Of a stretch of 64,000 nt of DNA, positions 30,818-60,807 are shown piece by piece. Source of the stretch: Buxus sempervirens (lineage: Eukaryota > Streptophyta > Magnoliopsida > Buxales > Buxaceae). The stretch's first letter is position 1, and each line of letters begins with the position of its first letter. The notes below the pieces were generated by a model. It searched no databases, was not told where the DNA came from, and worked only from the letters and a program-made list of their open reading frames with translations. Position numbers and translations under genes: made by a program. The DNA lies in assembly GCA_947561395.2 (NCBI GenBank), contig OX387190.1:20516858-20580857 (forward strand). Direction: 5' to 3'.

Positions 30818-30922
30818 AAGTGTGTAGACACCCCAAATTGCACAGTAAAAATGCAGAAAAATGATAAAAATCATTATTTCCTTTGAAACCAGCACAGAAT
30901 TTGAGAAAATAAGTTTTTTCCT

Positions 30923-31065
30923 TGTATCCGATTACTCAGGTCGAATATAAGCATACCTCTTTATATCCGACATAAGTTGTCGGATACAAGTAGACCTTAA
31001 TGTATCCGGCAACATATGCCGGATACATATAGGCACTTGTGTATCCGACCTAATATGTCGGATAC
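30923..31065 (+). repeat. Palindrome array in LTR A1
   Basis: Four dyads of the form GTATCCGnn-loop-nnCGGATAC: one degenerate, then TATCCGACA/TGTCGGATA, TGTATCCGGCA/TGCCGGATACA and TGTATCCGAC/GTCGGATACA. They sit about 170-310 bp upstream of the TATA box. Confidence 0.85.
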
Positions 31066-31231
31066 ATGATTTTTGCTCAAAATTAGGGTTTTATGAGAGT
31101 TTTCACTTTTTACCATCATATCCTTCATTAAATGAGTGGAAATCTCGGAAATAGCCTTAGGGTTAAGGTTGGTGGGCTCTAGACATTATGTTGTGTCTAC
31201 CATCCCACCAACCCTAACCCTAGCCTTTGCC

Positions 31232-31367
31232 TATAAATAGGAGGCTCCTCCTTAAGCAAATGGCCATTAACTCTTGCCAAGAACTTTTGCCAAGAAATTA
31301 GAGATCAAAAGAGCTCCGAGTGAAGAGGGAAACCGCCGCAGTCTTACTTTCAGAAGCCTAGGTAAGC
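31232..31367 (+). promoter_or_regulatory. TATA box and leader splice donor of LTR A1
   Basis: TATAAATAG at 31232-31240 and a donor-like G|GTAAGC at 31361-31366. The start would be near 31262, leaving a leader exon of about 100 bases. The same pair is present in A2 and A3. Confidence 0.6.
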
Positions 31368-33346
31368 CTCAAACCTCTCTTTACTTTTATGTTTTTTACA
31401 TTCTAGGTCTAGTTCTCTTCTTCTACCTTTTTGTAGATTAAGGCCTATGATGTGTGTGTGAAAACCCTTCCTCTACTCAAAGTATCTCAAGACTCCCCCT
31501 AGCCGTAAAACGTGAAGGCGGGATCTAGGTGAAACGAGACTGAGGATTGACCTTAGAGTTAGAACCTCTTTTGAATAAGCCTTTTGAATCTATGAAAACC
31601 GTTTCATATTCAAAGTACCCCAAGATTATCTTGAAGAACCGTGTTTAACGGGGAGAGAGAACTAAGGGAAACAATGATGGAACGGAACCCTAGGTTGTTT
31701 TAGAACCCCATTTGATTGATGAATACATGCTATATGTTGTTATGTTGCTGAAGATATGATTTTACATATACACACATAACACCCGTTTTATTGGATTGGC
31801 TCGTATTTTGGATCTATTGCCGTCATTGTGATAGATCTGAAATAAATAGCCTCAAGCAATTCTAGAATATATTTCAATGATTTTTGAATTGATTTCAATC
31901 AGATTTAACTTGAGTTTTGAAGACCTCTAGGTCTAACCTCTTGGTTTTGGGCATTTTGCTCACTTTTTGGGGTTCTTGGCATATCCTTTCTATTCGGAGA
32001 GGATGGTGAGCCAAACTTGCGCCCCATTACTTCCTAGAGGTTTTTCAAACTCTGTCTAAATGATTTTGATTCATCTTGCATGGATTCCACACACTGGATC
32101 ACTGTTTTAAATTGATTTTACTCAAAAAGGGCTTAACTTGACAGCAACTGTACCCCAACTTCGGACACTCGTAACTTCATCGTCCGGATGAATTTTAGAG
32201 TGATTTCAAAGCCATGGGAAAGGTTAGGCTGTCTAGTTTATGCCTGTAAAATTTCATTAATTTCTATCAAGCGGATTTTTGACACCTCTCTGTCGAAGTT
32301 GATAGGTCAGTTCAAGTCTGAATACGGAACCTGTCACTTCGACTGAGCGCCATGTGTTCGTTTTAAGTCCGATTCGAGTGATTATTGTTTCTGAGTCTTC
32401 CTTTGGGAGTCTAGTTTCAAATCCAGTTGGTTTCATATTTTTTTGATTTAATTTGTGTCGTGGGTAGCAGATTTACTCAGAACTGCTCAACAGCACTTTT
32501 CTGGGTTAATCTGTAATCTTCGGGGCCCGTTCGAGAAGTCACCCAAGGCACATCCGAATGAAATTTTGTATGAGGCTAGTTTCATTTGAAAGATGGCCAT
32601 ACATACTTCATTCACACCAAAATTCATGGATTTATATGGAGCAGATTTTTCTAGATGATTTTCCAAACTTGCCTACTTGTCATTTTTAACTATCTCCAGC
32701 AGTAGAGTTCAAAGGAGAATAACTCCTAGGATTTTAACCGAAATGGATTGAAAATTTGCATGAGTCTTCTATTTATCATAATCTTTCAAATGGATTTGGT
32801 TTGATTCAATCTAAACTAGATTTGAATGATTTCAAGACAAATGGCTCTATCTTTTACCGAATTTTCCGGATTTGACTCAACTTGGTTTTATGGAATGTTT
32901 GCTTTGATCTCAGTCTATTGGTGATATTCCAGAAGTGATATTGACATAAAATAGGATCTGGAATTCATTTGGATTTCTCATGTGAAAATATCACATATTT
33001 GTTTAATCCTTTTTCAAGGTTTTTAATGATTTTAGCAAGCTTTCTTATTTTTTTAGCATGAACAACACTTGGCAACCACCTTGTGTGGGTGAATGGGGGT
33101 GCCTAACACCTTCCCCCGTTCATAATCTAATCCCCTTACCCATCTCTGGATTTGATTTTCAAGTAGAGTTATTTTTACTATAGTATTTGCCTTTTAGCCC
33201 TTTTTTGCTTATTTTTGAATCTTTTGGTGTCCATTCTCACCCCTTTTCAAAATTTTAATGGTGGCGACTCTCCCACTTTTTAAGTTGAGCCCGTGTGTTG
33301 ACGGAGGGGGAATGATCCCGGTGATTTTTCCATGTCTCACAAAGTG

Positions 33347-34310
33347 ATAAAACCCAAATTGAACCAATCCAAAGTTGGTTTTAGTTAGGCAGTTTTCGAT
33401 TTTACCCAACCCAAGTTTCACCTCTAACCGTTATAGTGGGAAGGACACACCACCTGCATTGCATACTTGTTACGCATGAGTTTGTGGATTGTGTGGCATG
33501 GCACTTAGATATCATACTTAGAGAATATGTGCTTCAGGTTTCTTACAGTTGCATTAGGATAATCATTATTACATAAATACATGTTTATGATTATTGCATC
33601 ATGATATATTATTGATTTATGTTTTGTCTTGGCATATTCTTCTTAGTTTGAAGTTTCTAAATGGGGTTGAGATTGTAGGTTAAAGCCTACTGAGTATTGC
33701 TCCATAGAACTACATAAATGATATTGATGTTCCTTTATTTTATTACTATGGGGCTGCGCGTAGAAAACATGGGCCCACTTAGATAAACAGCCCGAGGTAG
33801 TTACAACATGTTTAAAATAGTGGGGGTTTATTTTGTTTGGGAGGGCAATGTTTGAGAAGAAAAAAAGGGGGGAACTAGAATCTGAAAGGAATATTCCCCA
33901 TCTTCTCTTTATTAATAGTATAGATAGATGATGAGATACCAAATCACAAGAGAATTAATAATGACTCGTTAATCATTATAGACGGATTTAACCGTGGGAA
34001 TTTCCCTGTATCTTTATTTTCTATGGGAAGCAATGGCATCTGAAGCGCTTGCAATCGCCATGGCCATAGCCTGCTTTGATGCAAATACGAGCTCATTGGC
34101 TATAGAAATAGCACAATCCTTTCATTACTTCTTTTTTGAGCAGGTCATTCGGCTTCGGCATACGCTTCAGCATTGACTCTACAACCTTTGGGCCCATCCC
34201 TTTTAACATAGTAGAGAAAAAAAATAATAAAATTAATTTTTAGTGAATAGTTGAGCATGTGAAAGAGAATATGAATACATATACATATATGATTCAAGCA
34301 AGATGGTATG
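33347..34310. other. Spacer between solo LTRs A1 and A2
   Basis: Begins with the rest of the AACC-rich repeat, then about 850 bp without a recognisable gene or element. Confidence 0.35.
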
Positions 34311-34315
34311 GTAAT

Positions 34316-36588
34316 TGTAGACACCCCAAATTGCACAAACAATCATCAAAAATCATTATCTCCTGGAAAGCCAGCACAGAATTTGAAGAAAATAAACTTT
34401 TACCTGTATCCGGATTGAGTATTCGGATACAAGTACTCCTTCCCGTATCCGGATACTCATACCGGATACATGTGAGACTTAGTGTATCCGGTACCGTGTA
34501 CCGGATACCTTAAGGCCCTTTTTTATCCGGTCTGATATACCGGATACCTTAAGTTTGCTCAAAATTAGGGTTTTCCGAGAGCTTTTCACTTTTACCATCA
34601 TGTCCCTCATTAAATGAGGGGAAATCGCGGAAATAACCTTAGGGTTAAGGTTGGAGGGGTTCTAGACATTAAGTTGTGTCTACCAATGACCTTAGCCTTT
34701 GCCTATAAATAGGAGCCTCCTCCTTGAGCAAATGGCACTGAACTCTTGTTTTGAATTCTCGCAAAGAAGAACTCCAAGAGAAGAAGAAAACCGCTGCGGA
34801 ATCGCCTCCAGAACTCAGGTAAGCCTCAACTTTTTTTTTATTTTCTGTCTTTACATTCCTAGATCTAGATCTCTTCTTCTACCTTTCTGTAGTGTAAAGC
34901 CTTGTTTGTATGTGTGGAAATCCTTCCCCGGCTCAAAGTATCTCAAGACTCCCCTAGCCGTAAAACGTGAAGGCGGATCTAGGAGAAACGAGACTGGGGA
35001 TTGACCCTAGTGCTAGAACCTATGTAGCATAAGGCCTTTTTGATTGATTGTAAACCGTTCCATATTCAAAGTACCCTTGATTATCTTAAAGAGAACAGAG
35101 GGAAACGATAATAGAACGGAACCCTAGGCTATGCTAGAACCTATTTTGTTGAATCTATATGCATGTTGTATTGATCTTGCTTGGTTTTTCACTTTTGCAC
35201 ACATATTACACTTTTTTGGTGAATAGGCTCACATTTGGGGATTTATTACATTCATTGTGATAAATCTCCAATAAATGGCCTCAATCAAATTCTGGAGTGT
35301 TTTTAAATGTTTTTCAAAGGTTTTGGATTCATCTCACACGAATCACACACTTTTGTCAATTTTCGGATTTGGTTTTCTTCAAAAGTGGCTTAGCTTGACA
35401 GCACCTGTACCCTTACTTCGGACGCCCATAACTTCATCATCCGGATGAATTTGGGGCGATTCCAGAAGCATGGGAAAGGTGAGGCTGTCTAGTTTATGTC
35501 CACCAAATTTCATGAATTTCCATCTAACGGATTTTTGACACCTCTCTGTCGAAGTTAAGTGGACAGTTCAGGTTCAAGTACAGAACTTGTCACTTCGACG
35601 GACCGCCATGTGTTCGTTTTAAGTTCGATTCGAGTGATTTTTATTTCTGAGTACTCCTTTATGAGTCTATTTTCAAATCCAGTTGGTTTCATAATTTTTG
35701 GATTCCATTTGAATTATTGGTAGCCGATTTACTCAGAACTGTTCATTTGTACTTTTCTGGGTAGATCTGTGATCTTCGGGGCCTGTTCGGGAGACCACCC
35801 AAGGCACATCCGAAGGGATTTTTGTATGAGGCTAGTTTATGTTGAAAGATGGCCATACAGACTTCAATCACACCAAATTTCGTGGATTTTTATGTTGTGG
35901 ATTTTTCTAGACAATTTTCCAAAGTTGCCCACTTATCACTTTTAAAAATCCCCAGCAGCAACTTCAAAGGAGCATAACTCCTAGGATTTTTATCGGAATG
36001 AAGTGAAATTTTGCATGAGACTCTTATTTACCCTAATATTTCAAATGGATTTGGTTTGGTTCAATTTAGAATTGGATTTGAATGATTTTAAGGCAAATGG
36101 CATACTTTTTACCAAATTTTCCGGATTTGATTCAACTTGGTTTTTTAGCAACTTGTGCTTTGATTTCCATCTTTTGAGATATTCCAGAAATGATATTGAC
36201 ATAAGAGAGGATCTAAAATCCATTTAGATCTTCATGTGAAAATATCATACATTAATCCTTTTTCAAGGTTTTCTATGATTTTAGCAAACTTTCTATTTTT
36301 TTTTTGCATGAACATACATTTGGCTACCACTTCGTGTGGATGAATGGGGGTGCCTAACACCTTCCCCCGTTCATAATCTAATCCCCTTACCCATCTCTGG
36401 ATTTGATTTTCAAGTAGGGTTATTTTTATCCTAGAATGTTTCTTTTGGCTATTTTTGCCTACTTTTGAATCTTTGGTGTCCATTCTCACCCCAAAATCAT
36501 GAATGGTGGCGACTCTCCCAATTTTTGCGTTGAGCCCGTGTGTTGACGGAGGGATGATCACTCCGGTGATTTTTTCCCATGTCTCACA
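34316..36588 (+). repeat. Solo LTR, family A copy 2
   Basis: 2273 bp, TGTAGACACC to TGTCTCACA, with perfect 5-bp duplications GTAAT (34311-34315 and 36589-36593). Same layout as A1: palindrome array 34406-34553, TATA at 34704-34711, donor CAG|GTAAGC with GT at 34819, conserved hairpin block at about 36340-36425. No coding region. Confidence 0.9.
34406..34553 (+). repeat. Palindrome array in LTR A2
   Basis: Four dyads with GTATCCGG arms, the best being GTATCCGGTAC-CGT-GTACCGGATAC. Here the inner arm bases are GG/CC or GGTAC/GTACC rather than GAC/GTC as in A1 and A3, and both arms have changed together. Confidence 0.85.
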
Positions 36589-36593
36589 GTAAT

Positions 36594-37744
36594 GCAAAAG
36601 AGCAAAGTTGTTTCATTTTCAATAAATTAAAGCTGAAAGATGCTGATTTGATGTACTATAATCAACATTTATTTATAAATCAATATTCAATGGGATTAAG
36701 TTAAAGATGCAAAGAGAAAGAGAAGAGAAATAGCCTGTAGCCATAATAAGTAATATGACACTTAAGGTAGCCAATAAAGACGGGGACCATGTTCCATTGA
36801 GAGAGAGAGAGCATAATGCAAGAGAATAACCTTGAACACTGCTTATATAATAATTCCAACATTTACATGGTCATTTTAGAGTATCTTTGTATAAAATTAT
36901 TTTGCTTATATAATAATTCCAACATTTACATGGTCATTTTAGAGCATCTTTGTATAAAATTATTTTTTGTCGATACCGTTAAATCTTATTCTTGAAACTT
37001 CCAGCCATCCTTGTTTTTAGTGCCCCAATCTTTAACACTAGCCATCATTTCCTGGTTTTCTCTTGTTTCTTCCTCCTTTTGATCCCACCAACAAGAGTTA
37101 CACATTGTGAGCATCCATATGGGATTTTTTAACTGAATGAGGCTAAATTTGGGACTATAAAATATAGAGTGAGGTATGTGTGTACCCTCTGCAGGCTATG
37201 CATCTTGGTTCGAGTACCTTGGTCATATATCCTTTTTGATTTCTCTCTAACTTGGTAAATTTCACTTAGTTCGGGTTTCAGTTGGAGTCACCACTGTTTA
37301 TTGGATTCAGGATGTAGACAGACACTCATATGGTTTGGTCTAATCTAGAATCTGGCTAAGTGACCCATTTATGATTCGATGATGTAAGCACCTTAATTTA
37401 GCAAGATGGAAGATGCCAAAAATGTAGACCTTTAATTGGCAAAATCAAAGGGACTTAAAGAGGAATTTTTGATAAAGGAACAAATGGCCAAATATGTTTA
37501 CATCAATAGAAAGAATACTTTGAGATGATCACAACACAAGAAACCTTGTGCAAATTGGAGTTTGAACATAGAAGTTAAATCAGCTTCAATGGTACTTCTA
37601 TAAATTGTTCAATTGTAGTCGGCATGGGCAAAAATGTGTGTGCCAAGTGTATGCCAAACATCTTTGCCATGTGTCAAACTAAAGGTAAGTCATATAAAAA
37701 CAAAATGAAAAATAATCAATAACTCTAAGAACAAATATAATGAA
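36594..37744. other. Intergenic with a 63-bp tandem duplication
   Basis: Positions 36841-36903 and 36904-36966 are tandem copies differing at one base (GAGTATC versus GAGCATC). The rest shows no gene. Confidence 0.6.
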
Positions 37745-37749
37745 ATATC

Positions 37750-38245
37750 TGTTAGAATTTTTCCTTTTATGTGGGCTCACATTAATTGTATTTTGGTTTT
37801 ATAAAAACAAGTTGAATATATAGTTTGTGATGATATTAAATGTGACCCAATATTACGAGTGATAAATTTTAATTGGGTTTGGTAGATCTTATTTTGTATA
37901 TTTGATATGTGACATAAGTTGTATGTAGACCAGGAAACTATATTGGATTAGGAGTCTCCATAGAATCTTATTTAAGATTGAAGTCTTTAATGGGAGGATT
38001 GTTTATTATAAATAGGCTAGGTCCCCTCTCCTCTCTTAATTTTTAATTGATAGAATATAACGTACTTCTCTCATCTGACGGGTTCTAATAAAGAGGAGCA
38101 AGGGGAGGAAGAGCTAGCCCTAACCAATATTGTTTTGGAGAAAATCAAAGTAAGAAAAGCAGCCACGTCTTCTGCAGGTAAGTCCGAAAAACTCAGTTCA
38201 CTTTTATTCTAGATTCATGCTTGTGAATAATATTGAAATCTAACA
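37750..38245 (+). repeat. Probable solo LTR, family D
   Basis: 496 bp with inverted termini TGTTAGA and TCTAACA, flanked by ATATC (37745-37749) and ATATT (38246-38250), a 5-bp duplication with one change. It contains TATAAATA at 38007-38014 and the donor CAG|GTAAGT with GT at 38178, so it repeats the TATA-leader-donor layout of family A. No coding region. Confidence 0.7.
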
Positions 38246-38250
38246 ATATT

Positions 38251-40035
38251 TTAATAAAATAGTCCAAAGAAATCAAACCAAATCAAATAAAAATAAAAAA
38301 TATATAAAAAAAAAGGGACAAATAAACGAGGTAATTAGGTGGGTGGTTCATGCAATGTTTGCACAACCACCACACTTTGGCTAAGAAGGGGATTAGACAT
38401 CATGGCATTTAATGCAAAAGGTAGCTTTGTCTATGCCATGCTCTGAATTTGAGTTAATATATTAGAAGTTTTTTCCACCAAAAAAAAAAAAAAAAGCTCT
38501 GAATTTGAGAACACAGCACAACCAAAATTATAAAAGTCGCAATTCCTCCTAATTCTATCCCAAAATCCTACTTCAAGATTACCTACGGACTCTGGATCCC
38601 TTCCAGATTAGATCAAACCCAAGGAACACCCCCGCGTAAGCTCTGTTGTGCATAAACACCTTGAAGAAGTCTTAGAATTGAGATTTTTGACATTCCCACA
38701 AGTTTGGTTAATCTTTATGTTCCTTTTTGAGTCAATTTTGTTGTTCATTTGATTGAATTTGCTTTGATGTCTGTCAAGTACTTGAGCAGTGGTCAAATAG
38801 GACTCGCACTCGAGAGCGAGACATGCGCTGGTTTGTGCAATTTAATTTAATGTCTGCAACCCAAGAGCACAATTATGAATATTTTATTTAACCAGTAGTA
38901 TTCAGATTGACTTGGTATGCAAATAAAAAGATTTAATTGGCTATGTGCATGGGATTAAGTGGTGTGGCGATAGACCGAATCGCCTTAAGTTCATATCTAA
39001 ACAAGCAAGCATGTGGGGTTTTTTTGCTAAGCTTGTATGATTATGATTGTGACTTGTTCGATTGATATACTACTACGGATTTTTTTGGTTTGAATGTTAA
39101 TTCTAATGGTACTGTTAGCACTCCATTGAAATGTTGGATTTCCTTAATCCTGTGTATCTATGCTTACTTCTTACTTTGAATGGTATGTTTTTTTGGTTAC
39201 CTGAGAATCGATGAACTAAAACTTTGTCAACGATGTCCAATAAGGAATTTGATATCGATAATACATTTGTTTGATCAGAAATGAATTATAAGATGTTTTG
39301 GAATCATTTAAAGTGAGTTGGGATGGAATTGAATGGATTTGCAACGAATTCGAACTGCAAAACATAATCTAGAAGTCGCAGTTCGCAACTAAGTAATTAA
39401 TCGTCGAGTTGGCAATTAATCGCAGAACGCAAGGCAATTAATAACAAAATTACTGATTAATCTTGATTATGAAATAGTGTTCTGGAAAGCTAATCATGTA
39501 AGGGACGATTAATCACGGAAGCGCAATTAATCTAGAAAATTTTTCGATTAATCCTAACTGCACAAATAATGTTCTAGAAGGTTGATCGTGGTCGGAGATT
39601 GATCGCAGGACCTAATCGCGAAAGTCGCAATTAACCGTAGATAAAGAGCGATTAATGAGCCAAAAATCTTCAAAATTGAGGAAAATAAGAAGGTTTCTAC
39701 CTGTGTACTATGGGATTAATTGAGTTTAATTAATTTAATGTGATTTGAATGTTTGCCTTCTAAATGTTACTGAAATATCATGAATCTTGAGTTACATTGG
39801 GAATTGTGAATTTAATTAGAATGTCAATGGCGTGCATAATGTTATCCTTGTGATGATATATAGTTTGTAAACATGCATAAATTGCATCATCTGACGTTCT
39901 GGCACTTTAAAGTGACTAGATAAAGTGCATGGAACTAGTCTTGGATGTCAGGATAGGACTCCAAAGGATGATTCCCGTGTTGCTTTGGGAATAGTAGGGG
40001 AAGAGAAAATTTTTCCTTGGGTTGCGAATCTCTAA
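38251..40035 (+). other. Unassigned LTR-like region (part 1)
   Basis: No gene. TATAAAAG at 38530-38537 is followed by CGC|GTAAGC near 38634. Positions 39360-39660 are an imperfect array of CGATTAATC and AATTAATCG words. With 40579-41366 this resembles one large LTR interrupted by the MITE at 40036, but I could not find its left end or a target duplication. Confidence 0.4.
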
Positions 40036-40578
40036 GGCTGTGTTTGGAACCCTGGATCTGGGGAGAAAAGAAAAGAAAATGCTAAAATTTTCTTTTCTCT
40101 TGTTTGGTTTAAATGAAGAAAAATGAGATTTTCTCTCCAAATTTTCTCTCCAATGTAAAAAATTTTCTTTCCAAAAAGGTAAGAATTTTGTAAGAAAATA
40201 AAATTCACCATCACTTATCACTATTTACACCACCCACCCTCACCACCACTAGCACCATCCACCACCACCACAACCCACCACCCACCATCACCCGCTATCA
40301 CTGCCGATCACCACCACCATTTACCACCACTATCATCGCCGCCGCTATTGCTGCCACCCCAACAACCATACCAACACCTGCCCACTCTCACTCGCCCACC
40401 ACCCCAACCCATCATCTTATTAAAATATATTTTTCTTTTCTTCTCGTTTCTTATCTCATGCAAACATCAGAAAAGAAAAGAAAATCAGTATTTTTCTTTT
40501 TTCTTTTTTTCTCTTCTCTTCTTTTCCTTTTTAGCTTTCTTTTCTTTTCTCCCCAAATCCAAGGCTCCAAATATAGCC
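40036..40578. mobile_element. PIF/Harbinger (Tourist-like) MITE
   Basis: 543 bp, terminal inverted repeats of about 40 bp (GGCTGTGTTTGGAACCCTGG on the left; the right end inverted reads GGCTATATTTGGAGCCTTGG), flanked by TAA on both sides (40033-40035, 40579-40581), the trinucleotide duplicated by this superfamily. The arms are GAAAAGAAAAG-rich. The centre (40225-40410) is a CCA/CAC-rich low-complexity tract. No transposase. Confidence 0.82.
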
Positions 40579-41572
40579 TAAAGAAACACAGGGGCAGTGA
40601 GCATTCTTTTGCACTTCCATTCAGTCGATTACACTTCCAATTTAGTCTTATAACCAGTCTTATACCACCAATCTAGGAGGGATAGTGGATTAGCTTTTTT
40701 ATGAGGTCCTATACCATCGCTTAGACAGAGGGAAAGTGGACTGTACTCCGAAGGTAGAGAGAAGATCCCTGGCTTTCCATCATGTCAGCATAGTTGTGTG
40801 TGCGTGGGAAACATGTCATCCATGCATCGTATTATTGAATTGTTATTTGTGCCTTGTTTATTAATTAAATTCTTGCTCTAGTCTGTATGATTGAGGTATG
40901 ATGTATTAAAGAGAATGACTGATTATTATGTGAATTGTAGATATCATGCATACTTTATTATTATGATGTATGTGCATGTGGTTGTAATTTAGTGGGGTTT
41001 CTTATTGCATTGTGAGCTCATTCCCTTTTTAATATTATAGGTTAGACAGCTTGGAAGAAGTCCTCATCCAGTAGATTGCAGAGAGAGAGAGAGAGAGAGA
41101 GTACTTGAGGACCTTATGTATGTACAGACTCATTTTGTTTTAATTATGTAAATTACCAGAGTCGTAAATATTGTGAGCTAAGGTCGTGAGAAATGGTATG
41201 TTACTTTCTATCTTACTTGCACAATCAGTCCCATATTCCGTTGATATATAATATTTTATTAATTAATGATTGACAGTTGTCTCAATGTGGGAAAGCAAGT
41301 ACCTCTTGTGATAGCTAATGAGTGTTACATCCCTCACTTAAAATATATCAAGTGGGGGATTTGACAGAATATTTATGTTTGATTAAAAGTAATGAAAACT
41401 GGTGAAATTGGGCTAACCTGAACCAAACCGAAAAGAATGTGCAATTTCGTTTGGGTTTTGAGTTTTACATTTTTTTTTTTGGGTTTGTTTTTTGCTTTGT
41501 ATAATCAATTCTCAATTCAGGTTGGTCCAGTTTTGGGTCGGCAATCATAGCCCTCGGTTTGGTTTTGGGTTG
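40579..41572 (+). other. Unassigned LTR-like region (part 2)
   Basis: Continues 38251-40035. It includes a (GA)n tract at 41081-41101 and ends like a Tekay-type LTR (CATCCCTCAC ... GTGGGGGATTTGACA, to 41366). Beyond that is an AACC-rich decayed repeat into which LTR B1 inserted. No gene. Confidence 0.35.
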
Positions 41573-44500
41573 AGGTCTGTAACGCCCCGAATCCAAGTTA
41601 CGTAGTGAAACCGTAACTCATCTCCGAAGGTTAATATATAACCCAGGATTGCAATATCAGAGTGAAGGAAAACATGAAAAAAAATCAATAACTGGATAAT
41701 CAGAGTGCACTATAACCCAAGCTCAACAATAAAATACAATAACTAAGGCTAACTCACATGAACTAAGCATATACCCGCTAGTGCCGTCCTTACCAGAAAC
41801 TGAAAACAAAGCAAAACAAAACGTAATGAGATACAAATATCCCAGTAAGTAGCACATGCATGCTTAAATACAGTTTATCAGTTCTAAAATATGATATAGT
41901 GTACATCATGCATCAATAGCGATAATACATTAGTTCCGAATAATCTGAGTAATCCAACAGTAAACCATCGATCAGTGTGAGATACAAGAATAATCCAGTT
42001 TAACAAACATATCTGTAACATCAAATCAACAATCGATATGTCACCGCAGGACTCATGAAATAAGACTACCTTTAACTAGTGTAACGACCATGCTCACTAT
42101 GCCACCTCCCGGCTTATGTGCGAAGCCGAGCTATACGATCATCGTCTTATTGCGGAAGAACCCATCCAGATACATTAATGGGTTGGCAAGTACTAATTCA
42201 GTCATAGTCCGAGATACACGATAAAATGAGGGATTGCCGTAGCCAACTAGATATAGAGAAGGCCTCATCGAGATACACGATGGAATGTGTACGTGAACAA
42301 GGTATTACTACTAGAAAAGAACAATCCTTTCCACTATCTAGCTCCTAACATGGATCCATATCGAGCTATGCCCACTAGACTCTAAAACCAAAACCAACAG
42401 AGAAAACCAGTAAGCACAACCCATCTCAATCTCAATTATATCATCCCGAGATACATGGGGCATCCCCGAGATACACAGGGCATCTCCGAGTACACGGAGG
42501 TAAAAGAATAACCCTCGTCTCATCAAAATAGTAAAACTATCCTCCAAGTATATGAGGAAATCCGGATAATTCATTTAAACCAAAATATTTTGTCAAAAAA
42601 CCTTTTTCCATAATATTGCATAAAATCCCTTTAAAATCTTATAATTTATTAAAACTGTCGAATTTCGGTTAAACCGGTAACTTCGAATGTAAAACCTCAA
42701 AATTAATTCCTATTATCAATCTAGATATGCTCTACTCATTTAAAACTGTAAAATATAGGTTTTTCCCACAAAAGTTATCTTCAGTTCACTCATTCTAGAA
42801 ATAACCTTTAAATACTTCTACTCGCACATGAAATTCCTTCATTTGCACTCCACATCTTTCCACCTTTAAACTAAACTCAATCCTGCAATTATTTCTCAAT
42901 ATGATTTCCAAGCAACCTCAAATGTGTTTTTGAACCTAAAAGAGACAATACTATAGTTTTACTTTGTAACCCCAATGCTCCTAACCCAACTATACCAAAT
43001 CTGAAAAATACCATGCTTATTAAGTTAATCTCTCTTTATACCCCTAATTCAGTATCTCCTTATTCCTTCCAATCCTTGGTAATCATCAATAATTAAACCA
43101 CTAAGTAAACCCCCACCAATAGAATTCAAAACCCATACAAGAGTGCTGAAAAGTGGTCGGCGCTGATCTCTAGAGAGGTTGGCACCACATCAGCAACACT
43201 CAGCACCAGAACAATTTTCCCCAGATACTACTCATATTTCCTTTAGAAATTTACTCAATTCCAACTCTCACTTAAAGTCCCTAATACTCCCCAAGTAATG
43301 GCTTACAACCCTTATAATAATTTACATCTAATTAATTGGACTTCAACTGGGCACCAATTACAGCAGCACATGGCACCCACACATTCTTTCTGTTTTCAGA
43401 ATTTATAACCTCAATTATGCTTCCAAATTAGCTCCTCCTAATCATCCAAATCTTTCATATAGCCCCTAATTAAGTCCCATAAGAAAAACTCCCATCTGTA
43501 TTTTAATAACAAACACAAAAGTTAAGATGAAGGAGCAGGCGCCAACCCCAACAGCACTTGGCTCACCCTCCATTTTCCACCCACATCACATGCACTTGTT
43601 AATTTTTGCTTATAATTGAACTGAAGTTTTATATTCAGACCATTTCCTAAATGAACCAAACCCTTCCAATAACCTATTTATCATAATTTGAATTTAATTA
43701 AACTATCAAAACAATTTATACAAAAGTAGCCACTCATGCATTCACTTAAATCAGGAATCAGCAAAAACAATTATAAGACCACTGTATATGTATATAATCC
43801 GATCAATCCTCTTAATCATTTCATCACCAGCAGATCAAAACTCATTTAATTAAATAGTAGCATCCTTGTGAATTTTATTGAATCAATTCTTACTATAGCT
43901 CTAGGCTAGGCGCTAGAAAATTCTGTAGAAACAGGGTGGGTTCGACTGACCTCTAATTCAAGACTGAAACTAAATTCAATTTAAATCATCTAAAACGAAT
44001 AAATTTATGCTACTTACATCTTAGAAGAATTTCGAGCTGATCAAATTCCTAATTGGACTAACCACAAATAGAAGTTTCTGCTGGATTTTACCCTGAACAT
44101 CTCTAGTAGCCCAAACACCATTGCTGCAACCAATTTAAATAGCTAAACATTGAGCCCCTTTCAATACTCTCTTTTTATATTAATTCATTCCAATGTAATG
44201 CCTAATATAAGTAGCACTCACTTACTTAAAATTTTCCTTTAATCATTTTACTAAAACCATTTAGACAAATCCTACTTAGAACCAATTTTACAATACATAT
44301 GTTGTTTAAAACATCTAGGCGCCAACCCAGACAGGTTAGCAGCCCTGGGCGCCCTGCCATAAATAAAAGGGGTAAGTTACGGTAGCAGCAAATCCACCTA
44401 TGAGACATGGGAAAAATCACCGGGATTATTTCCCCTCCGTTAACACACGGGCTCAACGTAAAAGTGGGAGAGTCGCCACCATTCAGTTTTTGGAGGTGTG

Positions 44501-46646
44501 AATGGACACCAAAAAGATTCAAAATAAGCAAAAATAGCTAAAAGGCAAATTCTAGAGTAAAAATAACTCTACTTAAAAATCAAATCCAGAGATGGGTAAG
44601 GGGATTAGATTATGAACGGGGGAAGGTGTTAGGCACCTCCATTCATCCACACAAGGTGGTTGCCAAGTGTTTGTTCATGCAAAGAAGTAAGAAATCTTGC
44701 TAAAATCATTGAAACATTGAAAAAGAATTAAACCAATGTGTGATATCTTCACATGAGAAATCCAAATGGATTCCAGATCCTCTTTTATGTCAATATCATT
44801 TCTGGAATATCAACAACAAATGGAAATCAAAGCAAAGATTGCACAAAGCCAAGTTGAGTGAAATCCGGAAAATTCGGTAAAAGATAATGTCATTTGTCTT
44901 GAAATCATTCCAATCCAATTTTAAATTAAATCAAACCAAATCCATTTGAAAGATTATGGTAAATAAAAGACTCATGCAAAATTTCAAGTAAATCCAGTTG
45001 AAAACCTAGGAGTTATGCTCCTTTAAAATCTGCTGCTGTAGATAATTAAAAGTGATAAGTGGGCAACTTTGGAAAATCATTCAAAACAATCGGCTCCATA
45101 TAAATTCATAAAATTTGGTGTGATTGAAGTCTGTATGGCCATATTTCAAATGAAACTAGCCTCATACAAAAAATCATTCGGATGTGCCTTGGGTGGTTCC
45201 CCGAATAGGCCCCGAAGATCACAGATTTACCCAGAAAAATGCTGATGAGCAGTTCTGAGTAAATCTGTTACCAACAGCACAAATGGAGTCAAATAATTAT
45301 GAAACCAATTGAATTTGAAAATAGACTCATAAAGGAGTGCCCAGAAACAAAAATCACTCAAATCGGATTTAAGATGAATACATGGCGCTCAGTCGAAGTG
45401 AAAAGTTCCGTATTCAGATCAGAACTGACCTATCAATTTCGACAGAGAGGTGTCAAAAATCTGCTTGATAGAAATTAATGAAATTTGGTAGGCATAAAGT
45501 AGACAGCCTCACCTTTCCCATGGTTTTAGAATCACTCCAAAATTCATCCAGACGATGAAGTTATGAGTGTCCGAAGTTGGGGTACAGTTGCTGTCAAGTT
45601 AAACCATTTTTGGATAAAAATAACTCAAAACAGTGACAAGAGGTATGTGATCCGTGCAAGATAGATCAAAATCACTTGAAAATCATTTAAAAACATTCCA
45701 GAATTTCTTGAGGCTATTTATTTCAGATTTATCACAATAAATGTAATAAATCCGAAATATGAGCCTATCCCGCCAAAATCATGTGCTATGTATGTGTAAG
45801 TGTAAAAATCATTTCAACAACATAGCAAAGATAGCAGGCATTCATATCAATCAAAATAGGGTTCTAAAAACAACCTAGGGTTCCGTTCCATTATCGTTTC
45901 CCTTAGTTCTCTTTCCCCGTTAAACACGGTTCTTCAAGATAATCTTGGGGTACTTTGAATATGAAAGGGTTTTCATAGAATCACAAGGCTTATAGTATGC
46001 ATTTAAATCAATAAAAAAAAGAGGGTTTTGGAACAACCTAGGGTTCCGTTCCATTATCGTTTCCCTTAGTTCTCTCTCCCCGTTAAACACGGTTCTTCAA
46101 GATAATCTTGGGGTATTTTGAATATGAAACGGTCTTCAAAGATTCAAAAGGCTTATTCAAAAGAGGTTCTAGTACTAGGATCAATCCCCAGTCTCGTTTC
46201 TCCTAGATCCCGCCTTCACGTTTTACGGCTAGGGGGAGTCTTGAGATACTTTGAGCCGGGGAAGGGTTTTCATACACACATCAAGGCCTTATTCTACAGA
46301 AAAGTTGAAGAAGAGATCTAGATCTAGAAATGTAAGAACAAAATTTAAAAAGAGGTTTGAGGCTTACCTGGGTTCTGGAAGTACTTCTGCAGCGGTTTCC
46401 CTCTTCTTTCGGAGCTCTTGTTGGCAAAAGTTTTTGGCAAGAATTGTTGGCCTTTTGCTTAAGGAGGAGCCTCCTATTTATAGGCAAAGGCTAGGGTTAG
46501 GGTTGGTGAGGTGGTAGACACAACATAATGTCTATAGCCCACCAACCTTAACCCTAAGGCTATTTCCAAGATTTCCACTCCTTTAATGAAGGATATGATG
46601 GTAAAATGTGAAAACTCTAGGAAAACCCTAATTTTGAGCAAAAATC

Positions 46647-46879
46647 ATGTATCCGACATATCAGGTCGGATACAAGCAATTTTCTTTGTATCCGACATTA
46701 TCTGTCGAATACAATAAAGATCCTTTGTATCCGACATTATCTGTCGGATACAAAAAAGATGTTTTGTATCCGACATTATCTGTTGAATACAATAAAGATC
46801 CTTTGTATCCGACATTATCTGTCGGATACAAAAAAGATGTTTTGTATCCGACATTATCTGTTGGATACAAAAAAAAGAA
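46647..46879 (-). repeat. Expanded palindrome array in LTR A3 (39-bp units)
   Basis: After one diverged dyad, five 39-bp units follow at 46685, 46724, 46763, 46802 and 46841, each built on TATCCGACATTATCTGTCGG. They alternate between two types ending AATAAAGATCC and AAAAAAGATGT, giving a 78-bp higher-order repeat. Because 39 is divisible by 3, several frames on both strands stay open; this is not a protein gene. Confidence 0.9.
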
Positions 46880-46910
46880 GCTTTTATCTGAATTTTAACA
46901 CAGGCAATAC

Positions 46911-47012
46911 TTATTTACATGTAATATCGTTTAAGTAAATGTCCTCGTATTTTTTTAATCTCCATTTACTTAAGATATTACATGTAAATAAGCAAACACC
47001 CCCCCCCCCCCC
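46911..47012 (-). repeat. Hairpin and C homopolymer in LTR A3
   Basis: CTTATTTACATGTAATATCG at 46911 reappears inverted at about 46977-46998 with flanking matches (about 30-bp arms, 25-bp loop), followed by a run of about 14 C. The same junction of TTTACATGTAAATAA and a C-rich run is present in LTR B2 near 48315. Confidence 0.75.
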
Positions 47013-47488
47013 TTTGAATCCATTAAAAATAGTTCCAGACCTAAATTCCAAGTGAATAAAAAGTCAACTTTCCAGTTCTAGGAAAAATTCCGATTTTTCA
47101 GGTCCGGTAAAAAGATTCAACATGTTAAAACCAAGGTATTCGTCAAGATTTAAAATCTCAAAAAATTCTTTTATGCAATAACATGGCTAAAAACCTGATT
47201 ACCGGGAAAAATTATCTTGAAATCTGGCTTTAAAAAATATTTCATTTTCTGGGGTCAAAAGTCAACAAAATTCAACCGGAAAAAGTTTGACTTTGCACAA
47301 AAGATTGAATTCGGGCCTTTTCCTTTACAGTTTTGGATTCAAATGGGTTAAGTATCTCAAACCCAATGCTAAGAATTAAAAATTCCAATAAGATATTTCT
47401 CTCCTTCATGATTTATCAAAAATCGTGCAATTTTGAGGTGTCTACACCACCTTAACTGAACCATTCTTCTTTCTTTAATCCATCTCCA

Positions 47489-51195: not shown

Positions 51196-52108
51196 TGTTG
51201 TATTTTGAGTTTTGAGAAGCCTCAAAATTGAGACTTAAATTTGTGTTTTATCCAATCCCACATTGGAAATTTATTGAAAATTTTAAGTGCTTTTTATTAT
51301 TTTGTTTTAATCTCTTTACCTTTAATTTATTCTTTACATGTTTTGTGTTTGGTGCTTTTCTAGGGATTTTCTAGAGCTTGAGCACCAAAACTATTTTTTA
51401 TGTTTGAAGTTTTTCTGAAGTTATACGGAAATTTGAGCTTCAAATGCCTACAGACAACTCGAGAGTAGCAAGTTCCGGAAGATTTGCCGGCGCTTGAGCG
51501 TCAAACACCTGCAAACAACCCAAAAGTGGGGATTTCCGGAAGATTTGCGGGTGCTCGAGCGTCAGAATGCGATTTTTATATCCATTTTTTTTTATCATTT
51601 TGAGCGATTTGGTGCATCGATTCGCACAATATTTAAAGGGGTTTTCTCCCATTTGTTAAGAGAACATCTCTATTCCTAATTTCTGAGAAAAATGGTTGTG
51701 AGAAACCCTTGCTTTCATCATCTTCTTCTTCCTCTATTCATCAAAGGTCTGATCTGAGTACACTCAAGGGGTTCGCCGTTGTCAAGATTATTCATGCAAT
51801 CTATCGGCGAGGTCTTGGACCATTGAATGCTGGGAAACCAAACGCTAGGAGCCCGTTGCACTGAGGATATCATCCGAAAGGGGGTGTCTAAATGTTTCAA
51901 GTAAAAAGATTCTAAATCTCGCCTCGGTCACAATAAGTCCCTTCTGATCTACACTTTTAATCTTTGATTTACTAATTTGGTTGAGATCTAAATATCTGGG
52001 GTTTTCGTTCGGATTTTCTACTGTATATCTGTGATTATACTTTGGGTTTGATCTACATATTAGTTTGATTGGTTTGCTTGGTTTGATCTGCCCCTATTTT
52101 CGACAACA
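51196..52108 (+). repeat. 5' LTR of copia element 1
   Basis: Contains an approximately 61-bp tandem repeat at 51432-51570 (GAGCGTCAAAC ... TTCCGGAAGATTTGCGGGTG) and a TATTTAAAGG box near 51628. It differs from the 3' LTR by scattered substitutions and short indels, so the insertion is not recent. Confidence 0.92.
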
Positions 52109-52140
52109 ATCTTGAAACCTTTAGAGATTCTTTAAAGATT

Positions 52141-52935
52141 ATGGATCCTACCAAACCTAATACTGTTGATTTGACCAAAGTTGAGCCTCTTGTTGGAGAT
52201 AATTTTAAGAGATGGAAACCGAAGATTTATTATATGTTTGATACCCTAGAAATTGTGTTTGTCCTGTCAAACCCAAAACCGGAACCGAATGACGATGGGT
52301 CTGAGTCGACTGCTTTGAATGCTTGAGTTAAAGCAGATAGAATGTGTAGGCATTATCTTCTGAACTCCTTGGCAAATGAATTGTTTGATTTATATTGCCA
52401 ATATGAGACTGCCAAGGAGATATGGGATGCTCTTCACACTAAATATGTGTCAGAGGATGCTGGGGTGAAGAAATTTGCTATAGGCAATTTTCTGAACTTT
52501 GTGATGGTGGATGGAAAATCGGTTTCAGACCAGATTAATGAATACCAAAAATTGGTGAGAGAGTTAATAAATGAAGGGATTAAACTTCCCAATGTATTTG
52601 TCGTTGGGGCTCTTATTGAGAAACTCCCTCTTGCTTGGAAAGTTTATAAGACTAACTTGAAGCATAAGAGGAAGGAGATGAGTCTGGAAGAACTGGTTGT
52701 CCACATTAGGATTGAAGAGCAAGCCAAGAGTAGAGAGAAGTCATAAAAACCTAGTGCAAGTTTCCCAGTTAGCAAGGCCAATGTGGTAGAGGACAATTCC
52801 AAGGGAAAGAAAAAGAAAGATTTCCAGAGTTCAATGTAGGCTGAGAAAAAGAAGGGGAATTGTTATGTCTATGGCAAGCTAGGGCATCATGCACCTCAAT
52901 GTAGGCTAAGACAACGCCAAGACGAATCACAGGAG
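52141..52935 (+). pseudogene. copia element 1 gag
   Basis: Nucleocapsid/capsid region in one frame (MDPTKPNTVDLTKVEPL; NELFDLYCQYETAKEIWDAL; LVRELINEGIKLPN) broken by TGA 52324-52326, TAA 52744-52746 and TAG 52837-52839. The zinc knuckle reads CYVYGKLGHHAPQC: the second metal-binding Cys is Tyr. The TAG lies in a copy of CAATGTAGGCT that also occurs 68 bp downstream, apparently a templated insertion. Confidence 0.85.
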
Positions 52936-52965
52936 AGACCTCAAGCTAATGTAGTTGAGTCTGAT

Positions 52966-55900
52966 GTGATTATTGCTGTTGTTTCAGAGGTGAACTTGGT
53001 TACCAATCCTAAGGAGTGGGTGGTTGACACTGGAGCCACCAGACACATTTGTGGAGACCGTGACTTGTTCACTTCTTACCAACCTGTGGGAGAGGGCAAG
53101 CAGGTGTCCTTGGAAAACTCTTTGGAAAACTCTCGCACTTCCCCAGTAGCTGGAAAGGGAAAAGTGATGATCAAGCTAACTTCTGGCAAGCAGCTGGCCT
53201 TGACCGAGGTTTTTCATGTACCGGATATTAGGAGAAATCTTGTGTCCGGGTCTTTGTTGAACAGGGCTAGGATTATACTTGTATTTGAGGGGGATAAGTT
53301 AATCCTTACCAAGGGATGGGTTTTTCTGGGGAAGGGCTATTGTAATAATGGTATCTTTGTACTCTCTATTTTTGATGAAATAAATGTTGCATCTTCTTTT
53401 GCTTATATTGTTGACACTTTATCTTTGTGGCATGCTAGATTAGGCCATACAAATGTTGGTTATATAAAACGTATGGAAAATCTAGGACTGATTAAGAAAT
53501 TAAATAATTTAAATTTTGAAAAATGTGAATGTTTGCTCAGAGGCAAAATTCACAAATAAGCCACATAAATCTGTTAAAAGAGAATCAGAACTTTTAAATT
53601 TAATTCATAGTGACTTAGCAGATTTTAAAAATAATATTTCAAGAGGTGGTAAAAAAATAGTATATTACTTTTATAGATGACTGTAGTGATACACTAAAGT
53701 CTATTTACTAGGAAGTAAAGATGAAGCAAAAGAAACATTTATAAAATATAAAACAGAAGTTGAAAATCAACTAAACAAAAAGATGAAAAGACTTGGGACT
53801 GATAGAGGAGGAGAGTATGACTCTAACCCATTTCACAAATATTGTGAAGAGAATGGGATTATTCATAAGGTTACTGCTCCTTGCTCTCTTGAGTCTAATG
53901 TGAAAAACAGGGTTGTGACTCCAAATACACCTAGAGGGGGGGGGGTGAATAGGTGTAGCACAGTGAAATAAAAATTTTCTATTAATTAAAGACAAGTCCT
54001 TAATTAATAGGCATGAACAAATCCTCAAAGTAATTCCAGAAAATCAAATAATCAATCAAAAGTAATAAACAAGCCACCCAATTTGCAAGTAAATAATTAA
54101 AGCACGTAAAATGAGACAAAAGCAATTTGGTGACGAAGGGAAAACTCAAAGAGAACTCTCTATAAGAAAAACCCTCCGGGCTATGCAGGAGCCACCTACA
54201 AGATCCACTATGAGAAGAAGACTTACAACCTGTAGTTCAGACCACTCAACATCCCTATGCTAGACTCTGGAACTTACAAACTTGAAAGTATTTGAAAAAC
54301 TCCTTAGATTTGCTCAACAGCAACACCTCAGAACTCTGAAGATCTTCTCACATGATCACCCAAACGAACTCGCCTGGTATCCGTAGGAACTCCCATGATT
54401 CAATCTCTCCAACCTGGAACTCCAAGGTAGAAGAAGAAAGAAGAAAAGAAAGGTTTTATGGCTCAAAAGAGGAAAACCTAGAAGAAGGGTTTTCTAGAAG
54501 AGAAAATGATATTTAGGGCTTCTAAAATGTGGCTCTCTTAGGTTTAGAAGGACCCTAATCCTATTTAAAGGTTACCAAAGAAGTTTGAAGTCAATCCGAA
54601 TTAAAACGAGTAAGTTATGTAATTTTTCGTAACTTTTCAGAAATTTTGCTAATTGAACGTTCGAACGGTGCATTAAACTTTATCTAACGCCAGCCTTCAA
54701 AAATTTCCGTTCGAATGCCAGATCAAACGTTCTCTAACGTCACTCTCTGGTTTCTCTGTAGACACTGAACGTTCGAACGCTGCATCTCACGTTCTTGAAT
54801 GCTACTCTCGGGTTTCTCTGCAAACATTGAACGTTCGAACGCTAGATCAAACATTATCTAAAACCAAGCATAGAAACTTCAATTTAACTCCGATTTTGAC
54901 GCTGTTTGAACCATGACTTCTTGGACTCAATCTAAACATTCTAAACACACTTTTTGATACGGAATTAAGCCAACATAACCTACTAGACCTAACATAATGG
55001 AGTAGCAAAGAGGAAAAATAGAACACTAAAAGAAATGATGAACTCTATGCTAATAGGGTCTGGTTCACCCAAGAACTTGTGGGGGGAGGCTATTTTATCT
55101 ACCTGTTATATTGTTAACAGGTACCCCGTAAGAAAACTGGAAAGACTCCTTATGAAGTTTGGGTAGGAGATGCTCCCAACTTTAATTATCTAAGGGTTTG
55201 GGGTTGTCTAGCAAAGGTAGGTCTTCCAGAAATAAAAAGAAGGAGAATTGGTCCTAAGATGATAGACTGTGCATTTATAGGGTATGTTGAAAACATTGCT
55301 ACCCACAGATTCCTAGTATTAAGAACCGTGGATGATGATGGGGTTTTAGCTAACTCTATAATAGAGTCTAGAGATGCAGATTTCTTTGAGTCTTCATTCC
55401 CTTTAAGACCAAAGACTACAATGGATTCAAATTTTGCTTCTACAAGTCAAACCAAAGAAGTACAATTTGAATCTCTTAATGAACCAGAACCACAACCTGA
55501 AATTGAATTAAGAAGAAGTAAACGAACAAGAAAAGAAACAACTTTTGGTGATGATTTCTACAGCTTCTTAATAGATAATGACCCTACAACCTATAATGAG
55601 GCCATGACATCTCCAAATGCTGAATTTTGGAGAGAGGCTATTAATGATGAATTAAGTTCTATTTTGGCAAATCATACATGGGAATTAGTAGACTTGCCAC
55701 CTGGAATTAAACCAATAGGTTGCAAGTGGATATTTAGAAAGAAATTTAAAACATATGGAAAAATAGACAAATTTAAAGCAAGACTAGTAGCTGAAGGCTT
55801 TAGTCAACAAAATGAGGCAGATTATTTTGACACCTATGCACCAGTTGCCAGAATAACTACTATAAGAGTGTTAATAGCCTTGGCAACTATTAACAACTTA

Positions 55901-57130
55901 ATAATACATCAAATGAATGTAAAAACTGCCTTTCTTAATGGGGACTTAGAAGAAGAAATCCATATGTCCCAACTAGAAGGATTTATAATACCTGGTAAAG
56001 AAAACAAAGTTTGTAGACTTGTAAAATCTTTATATGGTCTAAAACAAGCACCAAAAAAATTGCATGAAAATTTTGATAATATGCTTATAAATTATGGTTA
56101 TAACATAAATGATTCTGATAGATGTGTGCACTATAAATTTTTTGTTTACTCTGGTGTCATCATATGTTTATATGTAGATGACATGTTGATTATGGGAACT
56201 AGTACAGATGTGGTAATTTCCACCAAAAGATTCTTATCTTCTAAATTTGAAATGAAAGATTTAGGAGAAGCAGATGTAATTCTAGGAATTAAAATAATTA
56301 GAGAATCTGGTGGAATTACATTAAACCAATCACATTATGTTGAGAAGGTCCTAAGGAAGTTTGGACATTATGACTCTGATTCATTGTCCACTCCTTATGA
56401 TTCTAGCATGCACTTAAAGAAAAATTCTTGGACTATGGTTTCACAAGTTTAGTATGCTAGCGTGATTGGTTCCCTTATGTATTTAATGAACTGTACTAGA
56501 CTAGATATTGCTTATGCAATAGGAAGACTTAGTAGATATACTCATAGTCCTAACTATGAGCATTGGACTTCATTGATTAGAGTACTAAGGTACTTAAAGG
56601 GAACAATGCATTATGGTCTTCATTATTCTGGTTATCCTACTGTGCTAGAGGGCTATTATGATGCTAATTGGGTTACTAGGAATGAAGAGGTAAACTCAAC
56701 TAGTGGCTATATTTTTACTTTAGGAGGTGGTGTTGTTTCATGGAAATCATGCAAACAGTCTTGTAATGCAAAATCCACCATGGAATTCAAATTCATTGCC
56801 TTGGAGTTGGCTAGTGGTGAGGCAAAATGGTTAAGAAATTTTCCGCATGATATTCCTTTGTGGATGAAAGAACCTCCTATTTCTATTCATTGTGATAGCC
56901 AAGCAGCAATAGCTAGAGCCCAAAATAAGATTTATAATGGAAAATGGAGGTATATAAGATTGAGACATAATATCATAAGGCAATTACTTAATGACGGCGT
57001 AATTGCTCTTAATTATGTGAGGTCAGGTGGAAATCTAGCTGATCCCCTGACAAAGCCTCTTGAGAAAAAATTAATAATAAGTACATCAAAGGGGATGGGT
57101 CTTAAGACTATAGAAATGAACAACCCCTGA
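52966..57130 (+). pseudogene. copia element 1 pol: protease, integrase, RT, RNase H
   Basis: Protease (WVVDTGATRHICG, Asp codon at 53026) and the pre-integrase zinc region (LWHARLGHT) read in the gag frame to a stop at 53557-53559. Integrase core pieces (LIHSDLADF, RGGEYDSNPF) follow with frameshifts and are cut by a 1.1-kb insertion at 53901-54994. After it come NRTLKEMMNSML and GYVENIATHRF. RT runs from 55259 with KWIFRKKF, SLYGLKQAPKKLHENF and YVDDM at 56170-56184, then an in-frame TAG at 56450-56452. RNase H continues at 56462-57130 (GSLMYLMNCTRLDIAYA; SWKSCKQSCNAKSTMEF). It cannot make a full polyprotein. Confidence 0.88.
53901..54994 (-). repeat. Solo LTR, family C, inside copia 1 integrase
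   Basis: 1094 bp with TG...CA ends and perfect 5-bp duplications TAATG (53896-53900 and 54995-54999). Removing it with one duplication restores the integrase reading across the site. Minus-strand orientation is inferred: that strand reads TTTAAATAGG near 54562 followed by an AGGGTCC leader, and ends with a CACCCCCCC...CTAGGTG block typical of copia LTR 3' ends. GAACGTTCGAACG occurs three times (54655, 54767, 54829). Confidence 0.85.
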
Positions 57131-57686
57131 TGACAACCCAACCTATATGAATGACAATCCCAAGAAGTATGTTCAATGGGAAAAACAAATCACCTGAGTT
57201 GTTTGATAAGCACTACAAATTATTTTATGTATTGAGAAGCTCATCCCTATGATGTAGTAGTGCATAATTGCTCTTTGAGAGGTTGAGCAATAAAGCTCTT
57301 AGTGATTCCATATCCTTTATAAGTGGTGTGGTTAGTGCAGTTTACACACTTGATGGAAATCACCTATGTGGGTGTTGAGGTGGGGCTGCCTCTGTTGAGA
57401 CTTGGGCTAAGTCTCTAGAGCACTCATGAAACCAGCCAGCGCAAGGGCTATTCGTGCCACCTCGTGTAGAAACTTCCTTGAGGTATTCTATTGTGTGGGC
57501 TACAGCCATAGCTTGATTTACAACAAATAGATCAAGTTTAAGAATTTATTCCACCGGGTCTCTGTGAATCCTATAATGTAAATCCATAAGTATTGGTTTA
57601 AGTCCAAAAGACACCAGTACCATTGCACATTATAATTTTAATTACTCAAATCAATTTCTTTCAACTTTGAGTCTTGTGGGGGGAAT

Positions 57687-60730: not shown

Positions 60731-60807
60731 TAAATCTTTTGTTTACTATGTAATAAGGGTTTGAATTCTATAGTAATGAAGTTTTATATTTTGCATGTAT
60801 AAAGAGC

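Follow-up and report, generated by a model that had tools for sequence, protein, structure and literature searches.

Palindromic dyad arrays at the long terminal repeats and antisense gene promoters of an apparently Ogre-like retrotransposon in Buxus sempervirens

Why should the long terminal repeats (LTRs) of a retrotransposon carry rows of palindromes whose two arms seem to change together? This question is raised by three solo LTRs, copies A, B and C, in a 64,000-nucleotide stretch of Buxus sempervirens contig OX387190.1 (hereafter "the window"). Upstream of the TATA box, each copy has an array of 25-bp dyads of the form GTATCCG-N11-CGGATAC, repeated with a 39-bp period; there are 4, 4 and 6 units in copies A, B and C, respectively. 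A first reading of the window (the original prediction) had described at least four such dyads before the TATA box in all three copies, and this is confirmed: a strict pattern, GTATCCGN{10,12}CGGATAC, matches 8 times in the window and not once in 100 shuffles. The inner-arm variants named in that reading (GAC/GTC, GGCA/TGCC and GGTAC/GTACC) are also present. We propose that the array is probably a cis-regulatory module, with sites for a putative two-fold-symmetric DNA-binding protein at three promoters of what seems to be an Ogre-like element: that of the LTR and those of two antisense accessory genes, PMD-1 and PMD-2.

A looser pattern, GTATCCGN{3,20}CGGATAC, occurs at 30,738 places in the 676.5-Mb genome, compared with 25 places for the same pattern read backwards, our control. 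Among the looser-pattern matches listed, 50 of 50 are 25 bp long. Arrays were sampled using an anchor of 21 bases that lies downstream of the array, is uninformative about the arms, and has 4,790 exact copies in the genome. We took 90 of the 100 anchor places listed, all on contig C1 (10 listed places were not taken), and added the three window copies to give 93 arrays. Eleven of these were excluded as not clean; the remaining 82 represent 59 insertions and 57 distinct arrays, although L066/L069 and L109/L110 are LTR pairs and were entered as four insertions. The dyad finder allowed up to 4 mismatches over the 14 arm bases, which slightly biases the sample toward intact arms, and cores of 7-15 bp, with a length of 11 favoured by one point.

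The geometry of the arrays is strikingly regular. Four dyads were parsed in 84 of the 93 arrays (two of those 84 with one doubtful unit), and array size, usually four, ranges from 2 to 6. The core is 11 bp long in 357 of 360 parsed dyads, the 39-bp period holds in 261 of 268 spacings, and the linker is 14 bp in 264 of those 268. This fixed spacing contrasts with the downstream flank, where 154 of the 364 alignment columns are gapped. The TATA box, CTATAAATA, lies 127-157 bp past the anchor start in 56 of the 59 insertions. A scan of IMG/VR with the dyad pattern found 4 contigs, and a scan of IMG/VR with an LTR piece found no match.

Are the dyads conserved for their sequence or for their ability to pair? 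Mean pairwise mismatch among the 59 insertions bears out that the arms vary less than the loops: it is 5.2% in the outer heptamers (0.7% in their TAT and 7.0% in their CCG), 14.4% in the downstream flank, 34.6% at core positions 10-16 and 35.7% in the linkers. Conservation thus extends to arm sequence and spacing and is not confined to pairing. This speaks against one cause offered in the original prediction, selection for a hairpin, in which the dyads would fold as RNA (in the 3ʹ LTR transcript) or as extruded DNA and act as a structural signal or a source of small RNA. The potential to fold is considerable: stretches of 142 nt taken from the window arrays give much better folds than shuffled sequences in all three cases (z -11.4, -7.9 and -10.7), and the accessible text of PMC10760457 and PMC5311732 describes the LTR palindromes of maize Sireviruses as small-RNA hot spots. 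However, the outer heptamers of the 57 distinct arrays show no covariation, with 94 one-arm changes versus 3 two-arm changes, where independence predicts about 1.6 of the latter. Nor is there an excess of wobble pairs among outer-arm mismatches on the sense strand (27 G.T, 31 A.C), and 25 of the 57 arrays share a one-arm change, T at position 1 of unit 4. We therefore consider hairpin selection quite improbable.

The inner arms, on which the idea of joint change was founded, behave differently at different positions. The statement that the opposite arm usually matches is true of positions 8 and 9, where the arms agree in 0.90 and 0.71 of dyads in the 57 arrays, and untrue of positions 10-12 (0.36, 0.42 and 0.07, as against 0.41, 0.36 and 0.25 between dyads of one array), so pairing is not kept there. 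At position 8, agreement between dyads of one array (0.87) is almost as high as within a dyad, while across arrays it is 0.64; hence, the inner co-change is mainly array-wide, and the claim that arms change together to keep pairing within the dyad is not supported. What survives of that claim is an excess at position 9, where agreement is 0.55 between dyads of one array and 0.44 across arrays, and this much is in keeping with a hairpin. Without the same-array control, the picture would have been misleading. In the raw test, the fraction of Watson-Crick cells among inner pairs 8-12 is 0.490, compared with 0.397 (standard deviation 0.010, maximum of 2000 shuffles 0.431) when arms are drawn from different arrays; the control shows most of this signal to be array-wide. 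Apparent arm covariation can thus mislead, and hairpin covariation was not borne out. The joint change of the inner arms is thus largely a matter of which half-site the whole array has adopted (AC, GC or GT/GA following the heptamer), plus a within-dyad part at position 9.

Changes that arose after insertion were followed in 23 neighbouring LTR pairs, in which none of 11 array differences is matched in the partner arm. The pairs were chosen from 28 candidate rows by having no more than 3 array differences and >97% flank identity, with L041/L043 excluded, a choice that favours small differences and includes links of a chain of LTRs, L094-L100. In this chain (C1:8464439-8571693), LTRs of one element type recur at steps of about 15.32 kb, and it is likely to be a tandem chain of LTR-internal-LTR units.

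Could the array-wide types simply reflect age? If methylated cytosines had decayed (CCG to TCG) in old copies, on one arm as on the other, this parallel loss would yield A-T pairs at position 8. The G at position 8 and the C at position 18 do stand in a CCG context, the differences are transitions, and there is no AC-type array among close LTR pairs, which were sought up to 26 kb only. However, the adjacent CpG survives in 93 of the 107 half-sites that carry A at position 8, versus 326 of the 348 that carry G; L066 and L069, an LTR pair of AC type separated by 27.5 kb, have flanks that differ by only about 1.5%; and on the flank tree, which requires 10 changes of half-site type, AC takes the basal position in each of the two main clades and GC has at least two origins, an order that depends on a midpoint root only. 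Taken together, these observations make methyl-cytosine decay a very unlikely explanation.

Full-length copies elsewhere in the genome add what the original prediction, which also lacked the solo status of the window LTRs and the exact period of their arrays, could not include: arrays at two promoters inside the element that face the antisense direction. In one copy, two antisense frames lying past pol and before the 3ʹ LTR match the plant mobile domain (PMD), PF10536, with 39.6 bits for PMD-1 and 52.8 bits for PMD-2 against a cut-off of 34.9. On the antisense strand of L019, the order is four dyads, a TATA box (GCTATAAATG) and the ATG of PMD-1. The PMD-1 array and TATA box also occur in L015, L022, L026, L127, L129 and L131, and L130 has three dyads plus TTATAAAA. 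In L031, two dyads lie upstream of PMD-2, ahead of a spliced-looking leader, and there is no clear TATA box at PMD-2 in this copy. One or two such PMD-2 dyads are found about 800-1370 bp upstream of the LTR anchor in 17 of the 90 anchor loci; L079 and L089 were not counted, their dyads being other LTR arrays, and the remaining loci are 5ʹ or solo LTRs, are too short, or are without such dyads. The dyad module stands ahead of all three promoter regions recognised in the element (other promoters were not searched for), and at two of the three it precedes a TATA box.

It is striking that the half-site type matches across the three promoters. The share of A at position 8 in the LTR, PMD-1 and PMD-2 arrays, in that order, is 8/8, 6/6 and 2/2 in L109; 6/8, 4/8 and 3/4 in L066; 2/8, 1/8 and 1/4 in L064; and 0/8, 0/8 and 0/4 in L050. 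In four elements with near-identical LTRs it is 0/8 in the LTR, 0-1/8 at PMD-1 and 0-1/4 at PMD-2. Across the eight elements, the share in the LTR and that in the internal arrays are correlated with r of 0.96 and 0.98. LTR and internal half-sites match more often within than between elements at position 8 (0.88 versus 0.59) and position 9 (0.57 versus 0.36); the two values barely differ at positions 10, 11 and 12 (0.40/0.38, 0.36/0.37 and 0.33/0.29).

What would produce such a pattern? Conserved half-sites at a fixed distance, a free core, fixed phasing, a place ahead of the TATA box at two of three promoters and co-switching of two bases are together the expected trace of a two-fold-symmetric regulator. 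Building on the observed anatomy, conservation, spacing, three-promoter layout and matching types, we suggest that the half-site consists of GTATCCG and two lineage-specific bases (AC, GC or GT/GA), that two half-sites are kept 11 bp apart, and that the usual four dyads (2-6) are evenly phased upstream of the TATA box, with one dyad every 39 bp, for a protein that would bind as a dimer and activate transcription. Because the same sites stand before the LTR promoter and both PMD genes, a single factor could govern gag-pol and the two accessory genes alike. When the recognised half-site shifts, presumably because specificity has changed, the shift extends to the majority of half-sites at all three promoters, and within any one LTR it would look like two arms changing together. 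Of the three causes put forward originally, a dimeric site is thus the best supported, given conserved heptamers and spacing around a variable core.

Several observations weigh against this proposal. The plant mobile domain was tested for in a single copy. Of the 8 elements in the three-promoter comparison, five are related to one another and of GT type, and the permutation p values of the two correlations (0.006 each) therefore overstate independence; moreover, the PMD-2 value for L109 comes from one dyad in a short stretch. Position 9 fits only partly in L066/L069, with C in 7/8 LTR half-sites versus 3/8 at PMD-1, and L128 has no PMD-1 array where one was expected (the L112/L113 element; 1 of 5 such stretches). 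A conserved stem sequence would equally suit a hairpin-binding protein. Lastly, some PMD-2 cores in GT-type elements are identical to LTR core variants, indicating that exchange between arrays does or did happen.

Such exchange lies at the centre of an alternative that we regard as possible, though somewhat unlikely: template switching between inverted or direct repeats (for example by reverse transcriptase), or conversion, homogenises half-sites within an element, and types drift by lineage without any changing factor. The sites might still bind a protein, but their co-switching would be uninformative about its specificity. Besides the identity of LTR and PMD-2 cores, this explanation can draw on the near-identity of 5 of the 6 units in copy C, on the agreement at position 9 of facing arms of adjacent dyads (0.70), which equals that of the arms in one dyad (0.71), and above all on inversions of the core. 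The unit 1 (u1) cores GATACTCAATC and GATTGAGTATC are exact reverse complements among close relatives, with flanks 99.6% or 98.2% identical across the flipped copies, as are the unit 3 (u3) cores GTACCATGTAC and GTACATGGTAC. Between L086 and L087, with flanks 98.2% identical, the u1 core differs precisely at positions 11-15, which are inverted. We counted 11 flip-like core pairs, from about two events, compared with a mean of 0.22 (standard deviation 0.48) in column shuffles, none of 1000 reaching as high. The flips fit template switching across the palindrome and lend real support, as a mutational process, to inverted-repeat conversion, the remaining cause in the original prediction; such conversion alone is not enough to account for types that run through a whole array. 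If tracts were exchanged, positions 10-12 would be expected to travel with positions 8-9, and this is hardly seen between LTR and internal arrays, which argues against bulk copying, nor is it seen among the dyads of one array.

If a two-fold-symmetric protein does bind the dyads, either the host or the element might encode it. We raise, as a doubtful extension, that one of the antisense plant-mobile-domain proteins itself binds the dyads in a self-contained circuit, its recognition code (AC, GC or GT after GTATCCG) having switched repeatedly in step with its sites. Self-regulation by PMD, if true, would lead to lineages that have ceased to cross-regulate.

Features published for Ogre suggest that the host is an Ogre-like Tat Ty3/gypsy element. 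The LTR arrays of full-length copies are mostly 15-21 kb apart (9.5 kb in one), and coding-region pieces match Retrotrans_gag, G-patch, RVT_1 and RT_RNaseH. In one copy, the reverse transcriptase is of Ty3 type (RVT_1, PF00078, 108.6 bits), with RT_RNaseH_2 (PF17919) and RT_RNaseH (PF17917) above cut-off; an RVT_3 match after RT_RNaseH (E 0.0018, 18.6 bits), a candidate for the second RNase H that Ogre elements have ahead of integrase, falls under the cut-off of 21.6 and runs off the end of the piece. In L030 and L032, the G-patch domain lies past gag, within the open reading frame of gag itself. In one copy, L029, the LTR is followed by AC and then, two bases past the LTR end, by the primer-binding site (PBS) TGGCGACTCTGCTGGGGA, which we take to be complementary to tRNA-Arg. 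As far as the accessible text of the two sources goes, extra open reading frames with a plant mobile domain occur in 57% of Ogre elements (PMC6317226) and complementarity of the PBS to tRNA-Arg is a rule for Ogre (PMC9289625). The Buxus element has in common with the lineage as portrayed there a tRNA-Arg-type PBS, large LTRs, plant mobile domain reading frames and possibly a second RNase H; in contrast, the palindrome array goes unmentioned in those portions of PMC6317226 and PMC9289625.

Is the array itself without precedent? The original prediction knew of no named element with such an array, but the available part of PMC2829016 describes palindromic repeat boxes in Sirevirus LTRs upstream of the TATA box and of env. 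The Buxus element shares with those Sireviruses the clustering of many short palindromes with a CGG/CCG signature upstream of the LTR TATA box, further boxes before accessory genes (env there, PMD-1 and PMD-2 here) and a family-specific sequence, and the Sirevirus motif from Citrus, AATCCGGCTWRCCGGATT, resembles the GT-type dyad. The Buxus element is not itself a Sirevirus: its pol piece matches RVT_1 and not RVT_2, and in L029 AC and TGGCGACTCTGCTGGGGA stand where a Sirevirus, according to the same text, has the PBS TATCAGAGC after ATTGG. It also differs in being Ty3/gypsy rather than Ty1/copia and in having antisense plant-mobile-domain genes as its accessory genes, and its dyads are longer (25 bp), enclose a variable core of 11 bp and recur every 39 bp. 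For Sireviruses, the available part of PMC2829016 makes no mention of half-sites that switch across promoters.

Antisense accessory genes have a precedent in gene23 of maize Grande, which, in the accessible portions of PMC7264820 and PMC11963269, lies between pol and the 3ʹ LTR and has its own promoter. The Buxus genes share the location and antisense reading of gene23 and other antisense accessory genes; unlike Grande, the Buxus element has two plant-mobile-domain genes, whose promoters share the dyad array with the LTR. Among the papers listed by literature searches on LTR palindromes, no title or start of an abstract names an array of this kind for Ogre or Tat, and a search with the motif letters returned, among the matches listed, no title or start of an abstract naming such a cis-element. 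Palindromic LTR arrays are thus known from Sireviruses, and what is new is the three-promoter, co-switching layout. Two features of plant retrotransposons, both of unknown use, antisense accessory genes and the palindromic LTR boxes of Sireviruses, meet here in one element. Moreover, since the LTR promoter and the two antisense genes carry one and the same site, with its spelling switched in step between lineages, the role of the extra genes becomes testable by one binding assay.

The three copies in the window are about 80% identical to one another. Copy A (30823..33341, + strand) has TG...CA ends and the 5-bp duplication AAGTG on both sides; its array (30924..31065, +), mostly of AC type, has dyads at 30924, 30963, 31002 and 31041, and its TATA box, CTATAAATA, is at 31231..31239 (+). 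Copy B (34316..36588, +) is flanked on both sides by GTAAT, likewise a 5-bp duplication, and has a GT/GA-type array (34406..34547, +), with dyads at 34406, 34445, 34484 and 34523, that groups with copies having nearly identical LTR pairs; its TATA box, also CTATAAATA, is at 34703..34711 (+). Inner pairing is poor in the first unit of copy A and in units 1-2 of copy B. Copy C (44399..47446, - strand), with the 5-bp duplication CCACC on both sides, has an AC-type array (46649..46868, -) of six dyads, at 46649, 46688, 46727, 46766, 46805 and 46844, and a TATA box at 46475..46483 (-), which reads TATTTATAG in plus-strand letters.

Copy C, unlike copies A and B, has about 500 bp of additional U3 sequence from the LTR start to the array (window 46870-47430), which contains a C run and an inverted repeat bearing TTACATGTAATAT. 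An extra U3 of this size is present in 10 other of the 59 insertions, with a start-to-array distance of 522-580 bp. Copy C also contains a 125-bp direct duplication (45869-46156, starts 163 bp apart, 94% alike). Between the array and the TATA box lies an additional dyad, TAGACA-N8-TGTCTA (31180-31199 in copy A and in the same place in the other copies), some form of which is present in 48 of the 59 insertions. Immediately beyond copy B is a 63-bp tandem duplication, 98% alike (36840-36966).

Other elements are also present in the window. A 1265-aa open frame at 2145-5942 (-) matches Retrotrans_gag, with an aspartyl protease match below cut-off, and belongs to a different gypsy-type element. 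Tandem repeats of 61 bp at 51433-51564 and 57922-58057 lie on either side of a Ty1/copia-type coding region (51433-58057) and perhaps sit in the two LTRs of that element. More copia-type frames are found at 60757-63234.

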